Shown: piece after piece, positions 5,977 through 36,123 of the stretch
Numbering within the stretch: position 1 is the first letter of the stretch
How the letters are laid out: every line of letters starts with the position of its first letter
Origin: Gemella bergeri ATCC 700627
GTDB lineage: Bacteria; Bacillota; Bacilli; Staphylococcales; Gemellaceae
Direction of reading: 5' to 3'
Assembly: GCF_000469465.1 (NCBI RefSeq)
Contig: NZ_KI271860.1
Location: 1 to 36,323 of the forward strand
Length of the DNA: 36,323 nucleotides
Made by a program: the position numbers and the translations under genes
The notes under the pieces: generated by a model
Databases searched by the model: none
The model's input: only the letters and a program-made list of their open reading frames with translations
What the model was told of the DNA's origin: nothing

Positions 5977-6049
5977 AATAACTCTCTCTTAAAAAATAAT
6001 TATTCTATTATATTACAAATTCTAACAAAGGTTATTAAAAATTAATTAA

Positions 6050-29012: not shown

Positions 29013-30167
29013 ATGATAAATTCAGAAAACACATGGGCATTATGGGCAATTATTATAGCTATTGCAACGTTAAGTATCTATTTAGAAGAAAAATATCGTT
29101 GGGCCGCTAAAATTAGCGGAGCAATTATCGGTCTTATTATTGCCGCAACGTTAAGTAACCTACATGTTATTCCGCTTGAATCTCCGGTATATGATACAAT
29201 CTGGACATATGTTGTTCCGCTCGCAGTGGCGATGTTACTCTTCCAATGTGATTTAAGAAAAATTTGGCGTGAAAGTGGACGAATGGTTATTATTTTTCTT
29301 ATCAGCTCTCTTGGAACAATATTAGGTGCCATTTTCGGTTATCTTGCTTTACATAACCTCGTACCGGCGCTTAATCATATTGCCGGAGTTATGACCGGTT
29401 CGTATATTGGTGGCGGAGTTAACTTTGTTGCTGTCGCGAGTGCTTTTGAAGTACCCACCGATTTGATTTCCGCTGCAACGGTTAGTGATAATTTGCTAAT
29501 GGTATTGTACTTTTTCATACTTATAGTTATACCTACTCTTCCAATATTTAGAAAGTTTTTTATTACAACATTCGACAATAAAACGAATGTACAGCACCAC
29601 AGTAGTGATAACAGCAAAACAACTGTAGCAGTTAGAGATATTGCATTTACCTTTGCCACCGCGGTTGTTATAGTAGCTATTAGCTTTAGCTTATCGACTT
29701 ATCTTGCTTCCCTAGGTAAATCACCTTTGATAGCATTTATTTCTAACAAATATCTATTAGTAACAACACTGACAGTATTATTAGCATCCCTTTTCCCTAA
29801 ATACTTCACATCATTTAAAGGGGCTAATGAGATAGGAACTTTTCTTATTTATATTTTCTTTGTTGTCATTGGAATTCCTGCTTCAATTCAAGCAATTGTT
29901 GAAAAATCACCATTATTACTTCTATTTTGTGCAATAATGATAATTGTTAATATGCTTGTAACCTTTGGAGCGGCTAAATTATTTCGTTTTTCTATTGAAG
30001 AGGCTATTATTGCCTCAAATGCCAATATAGGTGGTCCTACAACAGCCGCCGCTATGGCTATTTCAAAAGGTTGGAATTCACTTGTTGCTCCGGCAATGTT
30101 GGTCGGTACCCTCGGTTATATTATCGGAACATATATAGGTATATTAATCGGACAATATTTAGGTTAA
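29013..30167 (+). CDS. DUF819 family membrane protein, putative transporter
   Basis: A 384-residue polytopic protein with about eleven hydrophobic segments, matching the DUF819 (YjcL-like) family. Conserved-looking glycine-rich spots include GVMTGSYIGGGVNFVAVA (about 125-142) and SNANIGGPTTAAAMA (about 331-345), which occupy similar positions in the two halves and suggest an inverted-repeat transporter fold. No substrate is established for the family as far as I know. Ribosome site AAAGGG; a TATAAT lies at 28973-28978 without a good -35. It is convergent with the prd operon, so a link to proline use is only a matter of position. Confidence 0.82.
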   Translation: MINSENTWALWAIIIAIATLSIYLEEKYRWAAKISGAIIGLIIAATLSNLHVIPLESPVYDTIWTYVVPLAVAMLLFQCDLRKIWRESGRMVIIFLISSLGTILGAIFGYLALHNLVPALNHIAGVMTGSYIGGGVNFVAVASAFEVPTDLISAATVSDNLLMVLYFFILIVIPTLPIFRKFFITTFDNKTNVQHHSSDNSKTTVAVRDIAFTFATAVVIVAISFSLSTYLASLGKSPLIAFISNKYLLVTTLTVLLASLFPKYFTSFKGANEIGTFLIYIFFVVIGIPASIQAIVEKSPLLLLFCAIMIIVNMLVTFGAAKLFRFSIEEAIIASNANIGGPTTAAAMAISKGWNSLVAPAMLVGTLGYIIGTYIGILIGQYLG

Positions 30168-30431: not shown

Positions 30432-31676
30432 TTATAATAAGGAATGAATAACACCATCACGACATTGATTTACACTTATTACATAAGGTAAATTTCTACT
30501 ATCTCTTATATTGCGCCCCCCAAGTATTCCTCCCGGTTCTAAAGGAAATAACACTGTATCATACATATTTCCCAAACCGGATACTATTTTTACAATAACA
30601 ACTTTAGCTTTATCAGGTTTTCTTACATCATAATACTCATACTTTTTATATGGAATATTGTCTACCTTTACCAATACATCACGAATTTCTTGAACAATTA
30701 AGTCTACCAGTCGATGCGCACCGATAACTCCATCCGCTGTTCGACCTTCTCCGTCAAAAAACGAGAAATCAATATGAATTATATAGTCAGATGTACCGGG
30801 CGTCCCTGCTCTATCGAAATATACTCTGTCCTTTAATACACCTTCTGATGATCCGATATTGGCCGGTTGATAACCCGTTCCTATTTCTACTCCGGTTATC
30901 ATAACTGTAACACCATCTAATTCATGCGTTATACCTTCTCCTAATTCTCCGGAATATTTACATGCTATCGGCATGCAATCTAAGTTAGAATTGACAAAAA
31001 TATTATGTTCATGCGGTTTTATAATGTTTACTTTTATTTGTTTAATTCTCTTATCAAATGAGATAAATGTCCTAGCTATATTTTTTCTGATAATTAGCTT
31101 GTTATTAATCAGCTCCGTCTTTTCACCGAACGCTACTTCATTGATAGTAAATACTTTTTTGGTTAACTTTCCTACTCTTAACTCTTTATTGCTGTTTATA
31201 TTATTCAATCGTTGCCGTTTGCTTAACTTATTTTTCAAAATTGCCACTGCTTTTTTAGCATCATAATCCGTCAAGTTATTTTCGCCTACCATACATGATT
31301 CATATCCTGTTGTTCCCTTATTTGTATCTATGATACAATCTATATATTGATTTGTACATACCAATCGTCCTTGCAAACCGATAAAACTAAGACCAATACT
31401 TGAAATATCATTTTTTCCGAGATTTTCAATTATATTAACAAAATCAATATGATGATTTCCCCAACCGTCAATAGCTACTAAAGCACCGTCTACCTGCAAG
31501 GTTTTAGCTATATCGCCTACTCTCTTAGCCGAATAAACCTTGTCATCATAACTTTCAGAAACACCGCTTACTATAATTCCAACTATTTCAATATCACTAT
31601 CTTTTGTTGCTACCTCTACAAGCGGGCAGCGATAGTGATGAAGTGTTGTCATTTTTATACTCGGCCCCAATCCCAT
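30432..31676 (-). CDS. Circularly permuted PrdA paralogue: PrdE-like module fused to PrdD-like module
   Basis: A 414-residue protein built from both parts of PrdA in swapped order. Residues 1-158 match the C-terminal (pyruvoyl-chain) part of PrdA: for example GWGNHHIDFVN (71-81) against GFGNNHIDFIE, and GLQGRLV against AYQGQLV. Residues about 166-414 match its N-terminal chain: DCMPIACKYSGELGEGIT against DVCPIATKVEGKLGEGVT, and GSSEGVL, GGILGGR, NQCRDGVIHSLL. The first residues (MGLGPSIKMT) align with the PrdA stretch that follows the cleavage site (CIGPATKEMT), and the last residue ends where that site would be, so no pyruvoyl cysteine exists. In Clostridia, PrdD and PrdE are separate genes resembling these PrdA parts. 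Start is firm: AAAGGAG precedes the ATG. Last gene of the prd operon. Confidence 0.85.
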   Translation of the reverse strand: MGLGPSIKMTTLHHYRCPLVEVATKDSDIEIVGIIVSGVSESYDDKVYSAKRVGDIAKTLQVDGALVAIDGWGNHHIDFVNIIENLGKNDISSIGLSFIGLQGRLVCTNQYIDCIIDTNKGTTGYESCMVGENNLTDYDAKKAVAILKNKLSKRQRLNNINSNKELRVGKLTKKVFTINEVAFGEKTELINNKLIIRKNIARTFISFDKRIKQIKVNIIKPHEHNIFVNSNLDCMPIACKYSGELGEGITHELDGVTVMITGVEIGTGYQPANIGSSEGVLKDRVYFDRAGTPGTSDYIIHIDFSFFDGEGRTADGVIGAHRLVDLIVQEIRDVLVKVDNIPYKKYEYYDVRKPDKAKVVIVKIVSGLGNMYDTVLFPLEPGGILGGRNIRDSRNLPYVISVNQCRDGVIHSLL

Positions 31677-31697: not shown

Positions 31698-31723
31698 AAA
31701 GAAGGAGGATACCCCCCTTCTTC
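31698..31723 (-). other. Strong hairpin between prdB and the permuted PrdE-D gene
   Basis: Minus strand GAAGAAGGGGG, loop GTAT, CCTCCTTCTTT: 11 pairs including two G-U, the most GC-rich stem in the operon. It is followed by GTTTGG and not by a T-run, so it is not a typical terminator. It may mark RNA processing or a partial attenuator that lowers expression of the last gene. Confidence 0.65.
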
Positions 31724-31743: not shown

Positions 31744-32469
31744 TTACACGTTATGACGGTATTCATAAGGTAATATTTTTGTTTCATTAAAACTTGGACA
31801 ATCTCTTACCCATTCTAATGATTCTTTAACAATTGCTGTTTGCATAGGGATATTATTAGGTTCCCCTGCATTTGAGCCGATTGGCACGTGAGGTGCAGTA
31901 ATACGTGGTGCACCTTGTTGACGAGCAATTGGTGGTAGTGCAGCAATTACACAGCAACTCATTCCTTGTTCTTCACAGCAACGTGTTACGATAGTTGCTG
32001 AACGGTGACATGTACCACATCCACCTGTACATAATACAATATCTACACCTTGTTCTTTTAATTTTTTAGCAATTTCCGGTCCTGTTTCATTGGTGAATTT
32101 TTCGACGTTACCGCCTCCACCCATGAACGTATATGTTTCTTTTGGTAATGATCCGATAAATCCTTCTGCTACCAATTCATGTAATCTATCAATCGGTAAC
32201 ATTGCATTTGGATCTTTATTAATATCAGAGTTATCAAACCCACCATGTGTTACCATTAATTCACTAGATGGTGTATCGAACGGAATTGTACGATATGTAA
32301 AATCTCCTGATGTATTGAACGGTTCTTGTGATTTAATATGTATTCCACCTGCTGTAATAAATGCAACTTTACATTCGCTTAACGGTTTCTTTAGTTCTGT
32401 AAATATTGCTTTAGGTGTAATAGGCACGAAAATTTCTGATTGCATCCCTGGTTTTGTTGTTAATTTCAT
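31744..32469 (-). CDS. prdB: D-proline reductase subunit PrdB, cysteine form
   Basis: A 241-residue catalytic subunit of D-proline reductase, which cleaves the ring of D-proline to 5-aminovalerate in Stickland fermentation. The active-site motif reads CTGGCGTCHRSA, with Cys151 and Cys154. In clostridial PrdB the first of these is selenocysteine (about residue 152). Here the codon is TGT, and no in-frame TGA occurs. Length matches clostridial PrdB. Other marks are the GGIH(I/K) segment at 41-44, THGGFD at 74-79 and LPPIARQQGAPRI. Ribosome site AAGGAG overlaps the upstream stop region. With PrdA it forms the enzyme; with PrdC it receives electrons. Confidence 0.92.
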   Translation of the reverse strand: MKLTTKPGMQSEIFVPITPKAIFTELKKPLSECKVAFITAGGIHIKSQEPFNTSGDFTYRTIPFDTPSSELMVTHGGFDNSDINKDPNAMLPIDRLHELVAEGFIGSLPKETYTFMGGGGNVEKFTNETGPEIAKKLKEQGVDIVLCTGGCGTCHRSATIVTRCCEEQGMSCCVIAALPPIARQQGAPRITAPHVPIGSNAGEPNNIPMQTAIVKESLEWVRDCPSFNETKILPYEYRHNV

Positions 32470-32481
32470 TGTATTTTCTCC

Positions 32482-32919
32482 TTAAGCTCTAGCTAATGTA
32501 ATTTTCTTTTTTCCTATCACTCTCATGTGACTAAGATAAAATTCTACATCTTGATTTTCTTTTAACACCACAGTTGTAAACGCCCAACGTCTTGGTACAG
32601 CTATAGTACCCAATCCGTCCATTATTGCTACTTCTATGGCGGTATCATTTACTTGAGTAATTTTTCCTCCCAGTAAACATGGTTGCATTTCTTCATAAAA
32701 TATATCTGAACTATCATATTCATAAGGGTCTTCCATTACTTGAATATAACTAAAGTAAAATTCTAATACATGTCCCATCTCTAAAATATTATCTGTCTTA
32801 ATTAGTTTTGTCGGTACAGTAATCACGCCTAAACGACCGTGAAGATGAATTTTTACTTTATCTTCTTTTACTTCCTTAATTATGCCACCCATCATTACCG
32901 GATTTATAATATAATCCAT
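32482..32919 (-). CDS. Proline-reductase-operon protein with two internal repeats
   Basis: A 145-residue soluble protein made of two tandem copies of about 50 residues. MGGIIKEVKEDKVKIHLHGR followed by LGVITVP in the first half (10-36) lines up with LLGGKITQVNDTAIEVAIMD followed by GLGTIAVP in the second (82-109), and each copy then ends in VEFYLSHMRVI or LEFYFSYIQVM. The pattern of short beta strands suggests two small beta barrels. I believe related proteins accompany prd genes in clostridia (annotated there with a CBO2463/CBO2479 domain name), but I cannot verify this. It lies between prdA and prdB with 12-13-base gaps and a good ribosome site (AGGAG), so it should be co-expressed and may help assemble or mature the reductase; that role is a guess. 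Confidence 0.8.
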   Translation of the reverse strand: MDYIINPVMMGGIIKEVKEDKVKIHLHGRLGVITVPTKLIKTDNILEMGHVLEFYFSYIQVMEDPYEYDSSDIFYEEMQPCLLGGKITQVNDTAIEVAIMDGLGTIAVPRRWAFTTVVLKENQDVEFYLSHMRVIGKKKITLARA

Positions 32920-32932
32920 TATTACTCCTAAA

Positions 32933-34732
32933 TTAGTGATATGTTTTACTGTCTACTAATACTGTTTCCGGAAGACCTAAAAGTTTGTTATTAGCATTAA
33001 TAACGTCATTATTCCATTTTTTCTCTGCCGGTTTTACTTCTACACCCGCCATTTTGTTTTTCAACATTTGAATTGCACGTGCTGCTACTGACGGTGTTAC
33101 ACAAGAACATCCGGCTATATCATTTTCAAATCCGCCTTTATCGATATTTTCTTCTACCATAGCAGTAGCATATTTGTTACCTACTACTAACTGACCTTGG
33201 TAAGCACAGAATGAAACCCCTACTACCGGAATATCTCTTACTCCTGCTTGATCAATATGTTCAATAAAGTCTATATGGTTGTTACCAAATCCTTCTGTTG
33301 TGATAACTACACCATCCAAGTCTAATGATTCAAATAAAGATCCTAAACGTTCAGATACCCATAATTTTTCATCATTTACTTGTGGTGAACCGACACAGAT
33401 AACCCCGATTAAATCAAGTTCTGCATCTTCTGCTAATCCTTCTACAAGCGGTTCACGAATGTAGTGACGAGTCATTTCTTTTGTTGCAGGTCCGATACAA
33501 GTTAAAGCGTGGATAGAACCGTCACGTACTTGGTTCGGTGTTAAAATAATCGGCACGTTACCGCAGTCAACATTTTTTTGACCTCCAATGATACCACATG
33601 GTTCTGTCGGACAAATAACGTTATCGTGCATAGCACCTTGTCCCATAATTTCTTTAACCAATACAACACGTGGATTTCCACTTCTTCTTACATCTTCACA
33701 GATTTCTTCTCTTACTACTTCACCGTCATAATGTTTTAATTCTTCACGAATTGCTTGTACGATAAAGTCTTGACATTTGTGCGCTGCAAAAGGTCCCGGT
33801 CTTGTCATACCTGATAGTCGTTCGATTGTTGCATGGCAACGAATAATAATATCGTTTTCATCTGCACAACCTGGATGTCCATAAAACGTTTTTTCATCTA
33901 AGAACCCTTCTGAAGAACCGAATTCATGTACTTGAACTCCGTCTTCATCAACACCAGTTAGCATAAATACTACACCGTCTAATACTTTAGTTACACCTTC
34001 ACCAAGTTTTCCTTCTACTTTTGTTGCAATAGGACACACGTCCATAATTGTTTCAGTGTAAATGTGACGTTTATCAGGATAAATAACATCCAATTCTAAT
34101 TTTTTACATAATTCATCTTCACCAAGTGCAGCTTTTGCTAATTTTTTATCAATTGTGATAACACCATCTTTGATAGAAGTTTTATCTCCTAATTTTACAT
34201 CTGTTATTTTGATATGTTTTTTAGTTAATGTGCGGATTACTTTTTTCTCACCTAATTTTTCTTCTTTTTCAGCTGCTTCTGCCACTTCTGGAGCATTTCC
34301 GGCACCCACTACTACAGGAACATCTAATTTCAATCCTTCAAATTTTTCGGCTTTACCAATTTCTATATGAATCATTCCATTACCTCCGTGAGTTGTTTGT
34401 GTATAAACTGATGATTTAGCATCTTTTACTTCTTCAACCACGTTTCCTTGTTTTTCTTCTGTAATATCTTTTTGTACTTCGTTTATTTTATCCAAGTACT
34501 CTTTTTTTATCGGTGTTAAAGCTTCTACATCTTCCAATAATGTACTTCCTAACACTTCTTCTATAGTAAGTCCGTCAGGGCTTAATGTTAGCAATCCTGC
34601 ATCAATCATGTCTTCGAATAGACCCGGATCTTCTAAATCGGCAGCTCCGATTACTTGACCTTTCTCTCTTCTACAACAAAAAATCGCTGGATCTTTTAAG
34701 TGTTTTTCTAATGTTTCTACTGTAATAGACAT
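32933..34732 (-). CDS. prdA: D-proline reductase proprotein PrdA
   Basis: A 599-residue precursor that self-cleaves to give two chains, the C-terminal one carrying a pyruvoyl group made from a cysteine. The expected site is visible as ALTCIGPATKE, with Cys at residue 412; this gives chains of about 411 and 188 residues, near the 45 and 23 kDa known from Clostridium sticklandii. The pyruvoyl forms a Schiff base with D-proline. The N terminus SITVETLEKHLKDPA and CCRREKGQVI is typical. I start at the ATG at 34732: an in-frame TTG 5 codons earlier (34747) overlaps the ribosome site GGGAGG, which sits 7 bases before the ATG. Many Cys of the N-terminal chain are kept, unlike in the permuted paralogue. 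Confidence 0.94.
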   Translation of the reverse strand: MSITVETLEKHLKDPAIFCCRREKGQVIGAADLEDPGLFEDMIDAGLLTLSPDGLTIEEVLGSTLLEDVEALTPIKKEYLDKINEVQKDITEEKQGNVVEEVKDAKSSVYTQTTHGGNGMIHIEIGKAEKFEGLKLDVPVVVGAGNAPEVAEAAEKEEKLGEKKVIRTLTKKHIKITDVKLGDKTSIKDGVITIDKKLAKAALGEDELCKKLELDVIYPDKRHIYTETIMDVCPIATKVEGKLGEGVTKVLDGVVFMLTGVDEDGVQVHEFGSSEGFLDEKTFYGHPGCADENDIIIRCHATIERLSGMTRPGPFAAHKCQDFIVQAIREELKHYDGEVVREEICEDVRRSGNPRVVLVKEIMGQGAMHDNVICPTEPCGIIGGQKNVDCGNVPIILTPNQVRDGSIHALTCIGPATKEMTRHYIREPLVEGLAEDAELDLIGVICVGSPQVNDEKLWVSERLGSLFESLDLDGVVITTEGFGNNHIDFIEHIDQAGVRDIPVVGVSFCAYQGQLVVGNKYATAMVEENIDKGGFENDIAGCSCVTPSVAARAIQMLKNKMAGVEVKPAEKKWNNDVINANNKLLGLPETVLVDSKTYH

Positions 34733-34790
34733 TGTTTTACCTCCCAATATGTATTATTTTTATGTGTATTACTTTATAATTTTAAATATG

Positions 34791-34827: not shown

Positions 34828-36123
34828 TTAGTTTTTAAATTTTCTTATTAGTTTATAGTTAACGAATCTTAATGCACCGTCAGTACAGTGATAAACCGGT
34901 AATTTTAATTGTGGAGCACAAGACATTACAGTATTCGTAAAATCTGTGCAGTTGCTAATTAAAACAGCCTGTGCACCCGCTTTTTTTAGCGACATTACCT
35001 TTTGTACTTGCCCTGGACAAATCCCCGGATTTAAACATTTTCTGGTTCCATTTTTCATCAATATAGCATTTTTACAGAACTCTACACCTACCACTTCACT
35101 ATTCATGCTGGCTGCTTGTTCACGAAGTCTTTCTTCATTCGCACCGCATGCACAGACCAATACTCCTATTTTTTCCGGACTTGGCAAGAATTTTTCTGCG
35201 GCAATTAAACCACCTGTAGTTTTTACAATCGGTGCTTCAACATATGTTCTTTTCCCTGTAAAAGGCCCTCCCATAATCAACTCACCATGCTCTTTATCTA
35301 AACCACCACATTTATCAAATAGCGAGCCGACCGATGACCCTAAAGGAACATCGAATAATACATGAATACTACCGGCATCCGTCAGCTTTCCTGCTACTGT
35401 TAAATCTTTATCAATCAACGGTTTTTTCTCTTCTACTATCTCTCTTACTTTTAACACCGTTTCTACATTAATTACTACAGCATCTGCTTCTGACGGTAAT
35501 TTATCCGGTTTTAACAATACTCCTAAACTTTCTCTAATAATAGCACGCTCTTCTCCCATCGGGTAGATATTTTCCAATTCAAAAATGGTAATATCATCAT
35601 CTTGAACCGCTGATTTTAATATTTGCACGGCTTCCGAATGAATACCTTTTAACGCTACAATTCCTTTTTTAGCATTAACTATATTCATTACGATACGCAA
35701 TCCTTTAAGAAGATTTTCCGGTTTATCCTCTATACGTGCGATATTATGTGATAATATCGGTTCACATTCTGCTGCATTAACGATCACTGTCCCGGTACCA
35801 TTGTCAAAACGTATTCCAAGTTTCACAGCTGTCGGAAACCCTGCACCGCCTAATCCTACTAGACCAGATTCTGCTATTAAATCTTCAGGTGTAGTAGAGG
35901 TTAACGGTTTGTATGTAGAAAAATCTGTGTCTTTTTCTTCGATGACTATTTTTTCTTCTGTCACATCAGTCACTATTCCATTAACGCTTGAAAATATATT
36001 ACTACCCAATGCAGAATCCGGTTTTTTTGCTATCATTTCACCTCTTGATACAGTAGAGTTTTTCTCTACTATTACTTCAGACGGAGCACCTACATGTTGC
36101 TTAAGCGGAAAAATATATTCCAT
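34828..36123 (-). CDS. prdC: Proline reductase-associated electron transfer protein PrdC (RnfC-like)
   Basis: A 431-residue RnfC/NqrF-related protein that is thought to feed electrons from NADH, directly or through the Rnf complex, to proline reductase. The glycine-rich nucleotide/flavin site GLVGLGGAGFPTAVK is at 87-101, NAAECEP at 116-122 follows, and CACGANEERL at 324-333 holds a Cys pair. Later cysteines (RKCLNPGICPGQ at 361-372, NCTD, CAPQ) may bind a cofactor. Clostridial PrdC is a selenoprotein; here all candidate positions are Cys and the frame contains no TGA. First gene of the operon. Start ATG at 36123 behind GAAGGGAGA. Confidence 0.9.
   Translation of the reverse strand: MEYIFPLKQHVGAPSEVIVEKNSTVSRGEMIAKKPDSALGSNIFSSVNGIVTDVTEEKIVIEEKDTDFSTYKPLTSTTPEDLIAESGLVGLGGAGFPTAVKLGIRFDNGTGTVIVNAAECEPILSHNIARIEDKPENLLKGLRIVMNIVNAKKGIVALKGIHSEAVQILKSAVQDDDITIFELENIYPMGEERAIIRESLGVLLKPDKLPSEADAVVINVETVLKVREIVEEKKPLIDKDLTVAGKLTDAGSIHVLFDVPLGSSVGSLFDKCGGLDKEHGELIMGGPFTGKRTYVEAPIVKTTGGLIAAEKFLPSPEKIGVLVCACGANEERLREQAASMNSEVVGVEFCKNAILMKNGTRKCLNPGICPGQVQKVMSLKKAGAQAVLISNCTDFTNTVMSCAPQLKLPVYHCTDGALRFVNYKLIRKFKN

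Follow-up and report, generated by a model that had tools for sequence, protein, structure and literature searches.

A conserved PrdE-PrdD fusion in swapped order, with its termini at the pyruvoyl site of PrdA, in Cys-type proline reductase operons

PrdD and PrdE are encoded in most proline reductase operons, and their role has so far only been inferred. In PMC3091704, it is inferred that they may have a protein-stabilizing role like that of the GrdE pieces, for which Groebe 2007, on these pieces and GrdB, is cited; the same paper cites Bednarski 2001 on the in vitro processing of PrdA, with no mention there of PrdD or PrdE. For the PrdB family, Cys homologs have been listed (PMC2398784). The more distant GrdE and GrdG, of component B of glycine, sarcosine and betaine reductase, are homologous across PF09338.

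The operon types described here were drawn from about 60 loci. The classic operon (type I) is composed of prdC, prdA (~590-690 aa), a CBO gene (~80-130 aa), a Sec prdB (TAGUGTCHR), prdD and prdE, and its 3' part usually holds prdF and a transporter. Gemella bergeri possesses one such operon (G000 contig C49, L041, 7355-17323), of the Sec type, in the order prdC, prdA (650 aa), a CBO-like gene (96 aa), prdB with an in-frame TGA, prdD (245 aa) and prdE (156 aa), accompanied by a prdF racemase and three TauE-type transporters. The separation of PrdD and PrdE in classic operons, expected by the initial annotation, is therefore found in the same genome, and a 414-residue layout is not shared by every PrdD.

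The window, a stretch of 36,323 nucleotides of the Gemella bergeri genome, contains an operon of another type (Table 1). Its prdB has a Cys in the motif LCTGGCGTCH and no in-frame TGA. The open reading frame that follows is a real gene, with a good ribosome-binding site (GGAAAGGAG directly 5' of the ATG). Type II operons consist of prdC, prdA (579-607 aa), a CBO gene of mostly 139-155 aa (two domains), a Cys prdB, mostly with the motif LCTGGCGTCHR, and then the fusion, which takes the slot held by prdD-prdE in type I and after which prdF and a transporter occur in some operons. Among the operons read (~60 loci), no fusion was the direct neighbor of a Sec prdB, and no Cys prdB had split prdD/prdE directly next to it. 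In most type II operons, the CBO2463 domain is present twice in its protein; type I operons, like the basal type II members L094 and L096, encode a short form with a single domain.

Table 1. Features of the type II operon in the window
Feature	Position	Strand	Remark
Fused, circularly permuted PrdE-PrdD protein, 414 aa	30432..31676	-	Layout kept in 26 distinct sequences
PrdE-like half, residues 1-153	31218..31676	-	Corresponds to PrdA from the pyruvoyl Cys on; Gly2 at the Cys position; invariant Cys17
Linker, residues ~154-165	31182..31217	-	
PrdD-like half, residues 166-414	30435..31181	-	Corresponds to PrdA up to Thr416, the residue preceding the pyruvoyl Cys
Terminator-like hairpin	31699..31722	-	T-rich tail; between prdB and the fusion
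prdB, Cys form	31744..32469	-	LCTGGCGTCH instead of TAGUGTCH
CBO2463/CBO2479-domain protein	32482..32919	-	Domain present twice
prdA proprotein	32933..34747	-	Short Cys-operon type
Pyruvoyl Cys417 codon of prdA	33497-33499	-	Numbering from the TTG start
prdC, electron-transfer protein	34828..36123	-	Without Sec

The fusion contains the body of PrdA in permuted order and lacks its N-terminal domain. In BLASTP against the PrdA of the window, fusion residues 3-166 match PrdA 418-589 (34% identity, E 2e-32) and residues 162-413 match PrdA 159-415 (36% identity, E 2e-49). The part that follows the pyruvoyl Cys in PrdA thus comes first and the part that precedes it second, as the initial annotation had read it. 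At the start, MGLGPS aligns without gaps with TCIGPA of PrdA, so that Met1 pairs with Thr416 and Gly2 with the pyruvoyl Cys417; at the end, Leu414 aligns with Thr416. An N-terminal Met is normally removed before Gly; because of this and of the positions of Gly2 and Leu414, the mature fusion would start precisely at the position of Cys417 and finish precisely at that of Thr416. Judged from these alignments, both free termini lie, to the residue, at the self-cleavage site of PrdA where the pyruvoyl group is formed. The proposed cut at this site is retained, but with the first residue moved: it is Gly2, not Met1, that falls on Cys417. The split proteins are already cut at the same place, since the PrdE of the Sec-type operon of Gemella bergeri begins with MGIGPSTKET and its PrdD ends with DGAIRAMV.

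AlphaFold2 models were obtained for the fusion (mean pLDDT 79.6, pTM 0.84) and for PrdA (mean pLDDT 81.5, pTM 0.69). Their predicted strands and helices pair one to one in permuted order: helix 137-153 of the fusion, for example, corresponds to PrdA helix 552-566, and the next fusion strand, 166-177, to PrdA strand 167-180. The fusion model is least certain at both ends and in residues 367-392, regions taken here to mark the side where the cleavage site used to be. Neither sequence nor fold searches identified a solved structure resembling the fusion or PrdA.

Among the family models, TIGR04482 (PrdD) covers fusion residues 170-413 end to end, although with 257 bits it stays under the curated cut-off of 320; the classic PrdD of Gemella bergeri reaches 359 bits. 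TIGR04480 (PrdA) matches in two stretches, the best one from profile position 162, at 353 bits (cut-off 700), and PF09338 (Gly_reductase) also in two, at 71.5 bits, above its gathering threshold of 22.2. The fusion thus shares with PrdD and PrdE the homology of both halves over their full length, the slot after prdB, the termini at the PrdA cleavage site and the loss of the pyruvoyl Cys. In contrast, the classic operons read have two genes in the order D-E, PrdD being a stand-alone protein of ~246 aa, whereas the fusion is one chain in the order E-D, with the PrdE-like half in front. GrdE differs in being a self-cleaving proprotein with native order and its own Cys. None of the NCBIfam models matching the 19 aligned fusions describes the fused layout, and no fused or permuted form of PrdD/PrdE was found in NCBIfam or in the literature searched, which left many subscription papers outside its reach; the same literature gave nothing on point for proline reductases independent of selenium or for pyruvoyl proteins with a permuted chain.

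Phylogeny separates the origin of the fusion from that of PrdA. The fusion groups with PrdD in the tree of the N-terminal part and with PrdE in that of the C-terminal part, both against all 49 PrdA (SH-aLRT 100 in each case). This fits the proposed PrdE-PrdD fusion in swapped order; by descent, however, the protein is not the permuted PrdA paralog that had been suggested, and a direct permutation of PrdA was rejected on the N-part, C-part and concatenated trees, which all place the halves with PrdD/PrdE. A single row labeled E within PrdA is a PrdA truncated by a contig end (L103). The fusions are monophyletic with SH-aLRT of 99 (N part) and 94 (C part), and the concatenated tree again unites them (99), next to split D/E, for which monophyly is weakly supported (54); because several branches among the fusions are long, the order inside the clade is unsure. 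The trees indicate one origin for all 26 fusions found. Given this placement of the halves, an already split pair most likely passed the cut at the cleavage site on to the fusion. A likely path is a tandem duplication of D-E, after which the middle E-D pair would have been fused. Neither split genes in the order E-D nor a native-order D-E fusion was seen in the operons read.

Cys417, Thr416 and His374 are each 100% conserved among PrdA (Cys417 in 49/49), whereas the corresponding fusion residues are Gly, Leu (61%) and Tyr (100%), and Gly, Val and Tyr are the commonest residues of PrdE/PrdD. The catalytic Cys, on which self-cleavage into two chains relies, is indeed absent from the fusion, as it is from PrdE, Gly2 being conserved in 92% of fusions and 96% of PrdE. 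The loss of further cysteines had been cited as well, but it weighs less than proposed, since these are not general features of PrdA: at the Cys of VDCGN in the window PrdA, 100% of Sec-type PrdA have Leu and only 56% of Cys-type PrdA have Cys, and the conservation of the TEPCGII Cys is too low to be listed. Their loss as a mark of lost catalysis was therefore rejected. Asp70 and Trp72 are common to the fusion and PrdE, where PrdA has Glu485 and Phe487, while Met9, Cys17 and Asn273 are features of the fusion only. Cys17 is present in 19/19 aligned fusions, at a position with Glu in PrdA and Asp in PrdE; it is missing, together with Met9, from the two basal fusions of L094 and L096, and also from an extra fusion copy of A. 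octavius. In the main type II clade, Cys17 of the fusion occurs together with the extra Cys of LCTGGC in PrdB; L094 and L096 have neither.

The survey of genomes for fused and split genes found both, and the fusion is a conserved family that is not peculiar to Gemella bergeri. Scanning genome contigs gave 20 loci, of which 18 have the fusion layout end to end; in total, 26 distinct sequences have this layout. The genera include Gemella, Dorea, Mogibacterium, Peptostreptococcus, Anaerotignum, Lachnoanaerobaculum, Peptoniphilus, Aedoeadaptatus, Anaerococcus, Anaeroglobus, Mediterraneibacter and others. The layout extends over Gemella, Clostridia, Peptoniphilaceae and one Negativicute, with the gene nearly always in a Cys-type operon. 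In the class of Peptostreptococcus (391 genomes), 21 genomes have a match and at least seven a fusion among the candidates, of which up to four per genome were scored, so that absences there are weak. The fusion was found in 7 of the 130 genomes of the family of Aedoeadaptatus; 200 genomes from the class to which Anaeroglobus belongs yielded it in Anaeroglobus alone. The joint, measured between the conserved K150 and L171, has 17-23 residues in 19/19 aligned fusions.

In Anaerococcus, the genomes have a Sec-type core and no split D/E, and the fusion lies ~10 kb away near sel genes, as if replacing prdD/prdE. In two loci (L031, L079) it is located between selenium-utilization genes and not beside prdA/prdB; A. 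octavius (L080, 14212-16812) has two different fusions in tandem, and the only PrdB of that genome is of the Sec type. Since the fusion arose once, its link with Cys-type operons represents a single evolutionary event, broken in Anaerococcus, and the counts are not independent. Several complete operons have no adjacent fusion or D/E gene (L098, L099, L100-L102), two of which, L098 and L099, are of the Cys type.

The selenocysteine machinery was followed through SelB (TIGR00475), which scores above the cut-off in 22 of 26 genomes. The remaining four (Anaerotignum G064, L. saburreum G065, G391 and G414) all have Cys PrdB only; they are four of the five surveyed genomes with Cys PrdB only, the fifth (G076) having SelB nonetheless, and SelB is present in every surveyed genome with a Sec PrdB. 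Based on this distribution, the type II operon very likely is, as it appears, a selenium-free proline reductase. The fusion occurs in two of the four SelB-less genomes (G064, G065). It was not found in G391, nor in G414 among the four of five candidates scored; in some lineages, type II operons thus seem able to do without it. Such a widespread operon in SelB-less genomes would allow anaerobes to reduce proline without selenium, a point of consequence for models of Stickland fermentation in the gut and mouth, in which proline reductase counts as a selenoenzyme.

A terminator-like hairpin such as that in front of the fusion gene was detected in 13 of 14 distinct prdB-fusion gaps, compared with 8/17 prdB-prdD gaps, 3/28 prdC-prdA gaps and 0/42 shuffled controls, the shuffles preserving base composition only. 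Judged from the sequence, the hairpin probably lowers expression of the fusion below that of the catalytic subunits; it could instead stabilize the upstream mRNA without ending transcription. Together with the lack of a fusion in some Cys-type operons, this hairpin suggests that the role is accessory and possibly sub-stoichiometric.

The fusion probably acts as a mimic of processed PrdA, itself catalytically dead, and assembles or stabilizes a selenium-free proline reductase. The initial annotation proposed that it may pair pseudo-symmetrically with processed PrdA. It would bind PrdB, or sit in a PrdA-like position, and help the PrdA-PrdB enzyme to form or persist, by analogy with the GrdE pieces, which are reported to do so for GrdB. 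With the halves joined via their far ends, the cleavage-site face would stay open, as in mature PrdA, and the PrdE-like and PrdD-like parts would be fixed at 1:1, at a level that the hairpin probably keeps under the catalytic subunits. The complete operons without an adjacent fusion or D/E gene fit an accessory role of this kind. A maturation factor, which binds unprocessed PrdA, promotes its self-cleavage or pyruvoyl formation and then leaves, would likewise have the shape and termini of cleaved PrdA, and expression under the core, as the hairpin suggests, would suit such an assembly catalyst. We regard it as somewhat unlikely, as several operons have neither D/E nor a fusion nearby and PMC3091704 cites PrdA processing in vitro (Bednarski 2001) with PrdD/PrdE unmentioned.

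Invariant Cys17 in the main fusion clade could have a chemical rather than a purely structural role. As a redox partner, the fusion would exchange disulfides with the Cys-type PrdB through this residue, which is near the pseudo-cleavage end in sequence; its conservation, with Glu in PrdA and Asp in PrdE, and its absence from the same basal operons whose PrdB is without the extra Cys speak for this. However, the fusions of Anaerococcus retain Cys17 although the Sec PrdB there is without that Cys, the co-gain is a single event, and some Cys-type operons (L098, L099) have no fusion, which makes the proposal an unlikely one. An extended version is similarly improbable: a redox-active pseudo-PrdA within a distinct selenium-free proline reductase, placed beside processed PrdA with its open face turned to PrdB, in which Cys17 and the extra PrdB Cys partly replace Sec. 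If true, selection would favor the reversed joint, as fusing the halves in native order would shut the face that needs to be open. Very little weight is given to a subunit that, with PrdA or PrdB, alters the substrate reduced, for example to a proline analog: the window operon indeed has no prdF, and its nearest transporter is a convergent DUF819 gene and not the TauE type of classic operons, but a prdF proline racemase and a TauE transporter adjoin the fusion in the Cys-type operons of L025, L030 and L089, so that proline is the likeliest substrate. That the fusion arose by chance or through misassembly in a single genome, as the one-base difference at the start of the G. cuniculi copy might suggest, is refuted by conservation: the layout occurs in 26 distinct sequences across many genera, and the linker length is nearly constant. 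The natural E-D fusion hints at the ends that can be tied and those that have to remain free, and it offers a one-gene handle on the role of PrdD/PrdE.

Several minor observations concern individual loci. In Gemella cuniculi (L021, ~5998-6030), owing to the one-base difference, the expected ATG runs into a stop, and the open frame starts at the Met matching fusion residue 9; this is a sequencing error or a young pseudogene. In another genome of the family of Gemella bergeri (G010, L048, 7132-9757), the prd operon has decayed to fragments. The C-terminal redox center of the window PrdC (residues 392-395) reads CTDF (codon TTT); it is CTDC or a close CxxC in all Cys-type relatives read, including the nearest strain (L044), and CxxU in the Sec type. 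The second Cys thus appears to have been lost in the Gemella bergeri genome, or the codon contains a base error. The DUF819 membrane protein (29013-30167, forward strand), convergent with the fusion, is kept in the same nearest strain (G002) and was not seen in the other operons read. In many of the type II loci (L022, L023, L025, L026, L028, L029 and L030), a LysR-like regulator, recognized by eye, is present upstream of the operon in a mostly divergent orientation.
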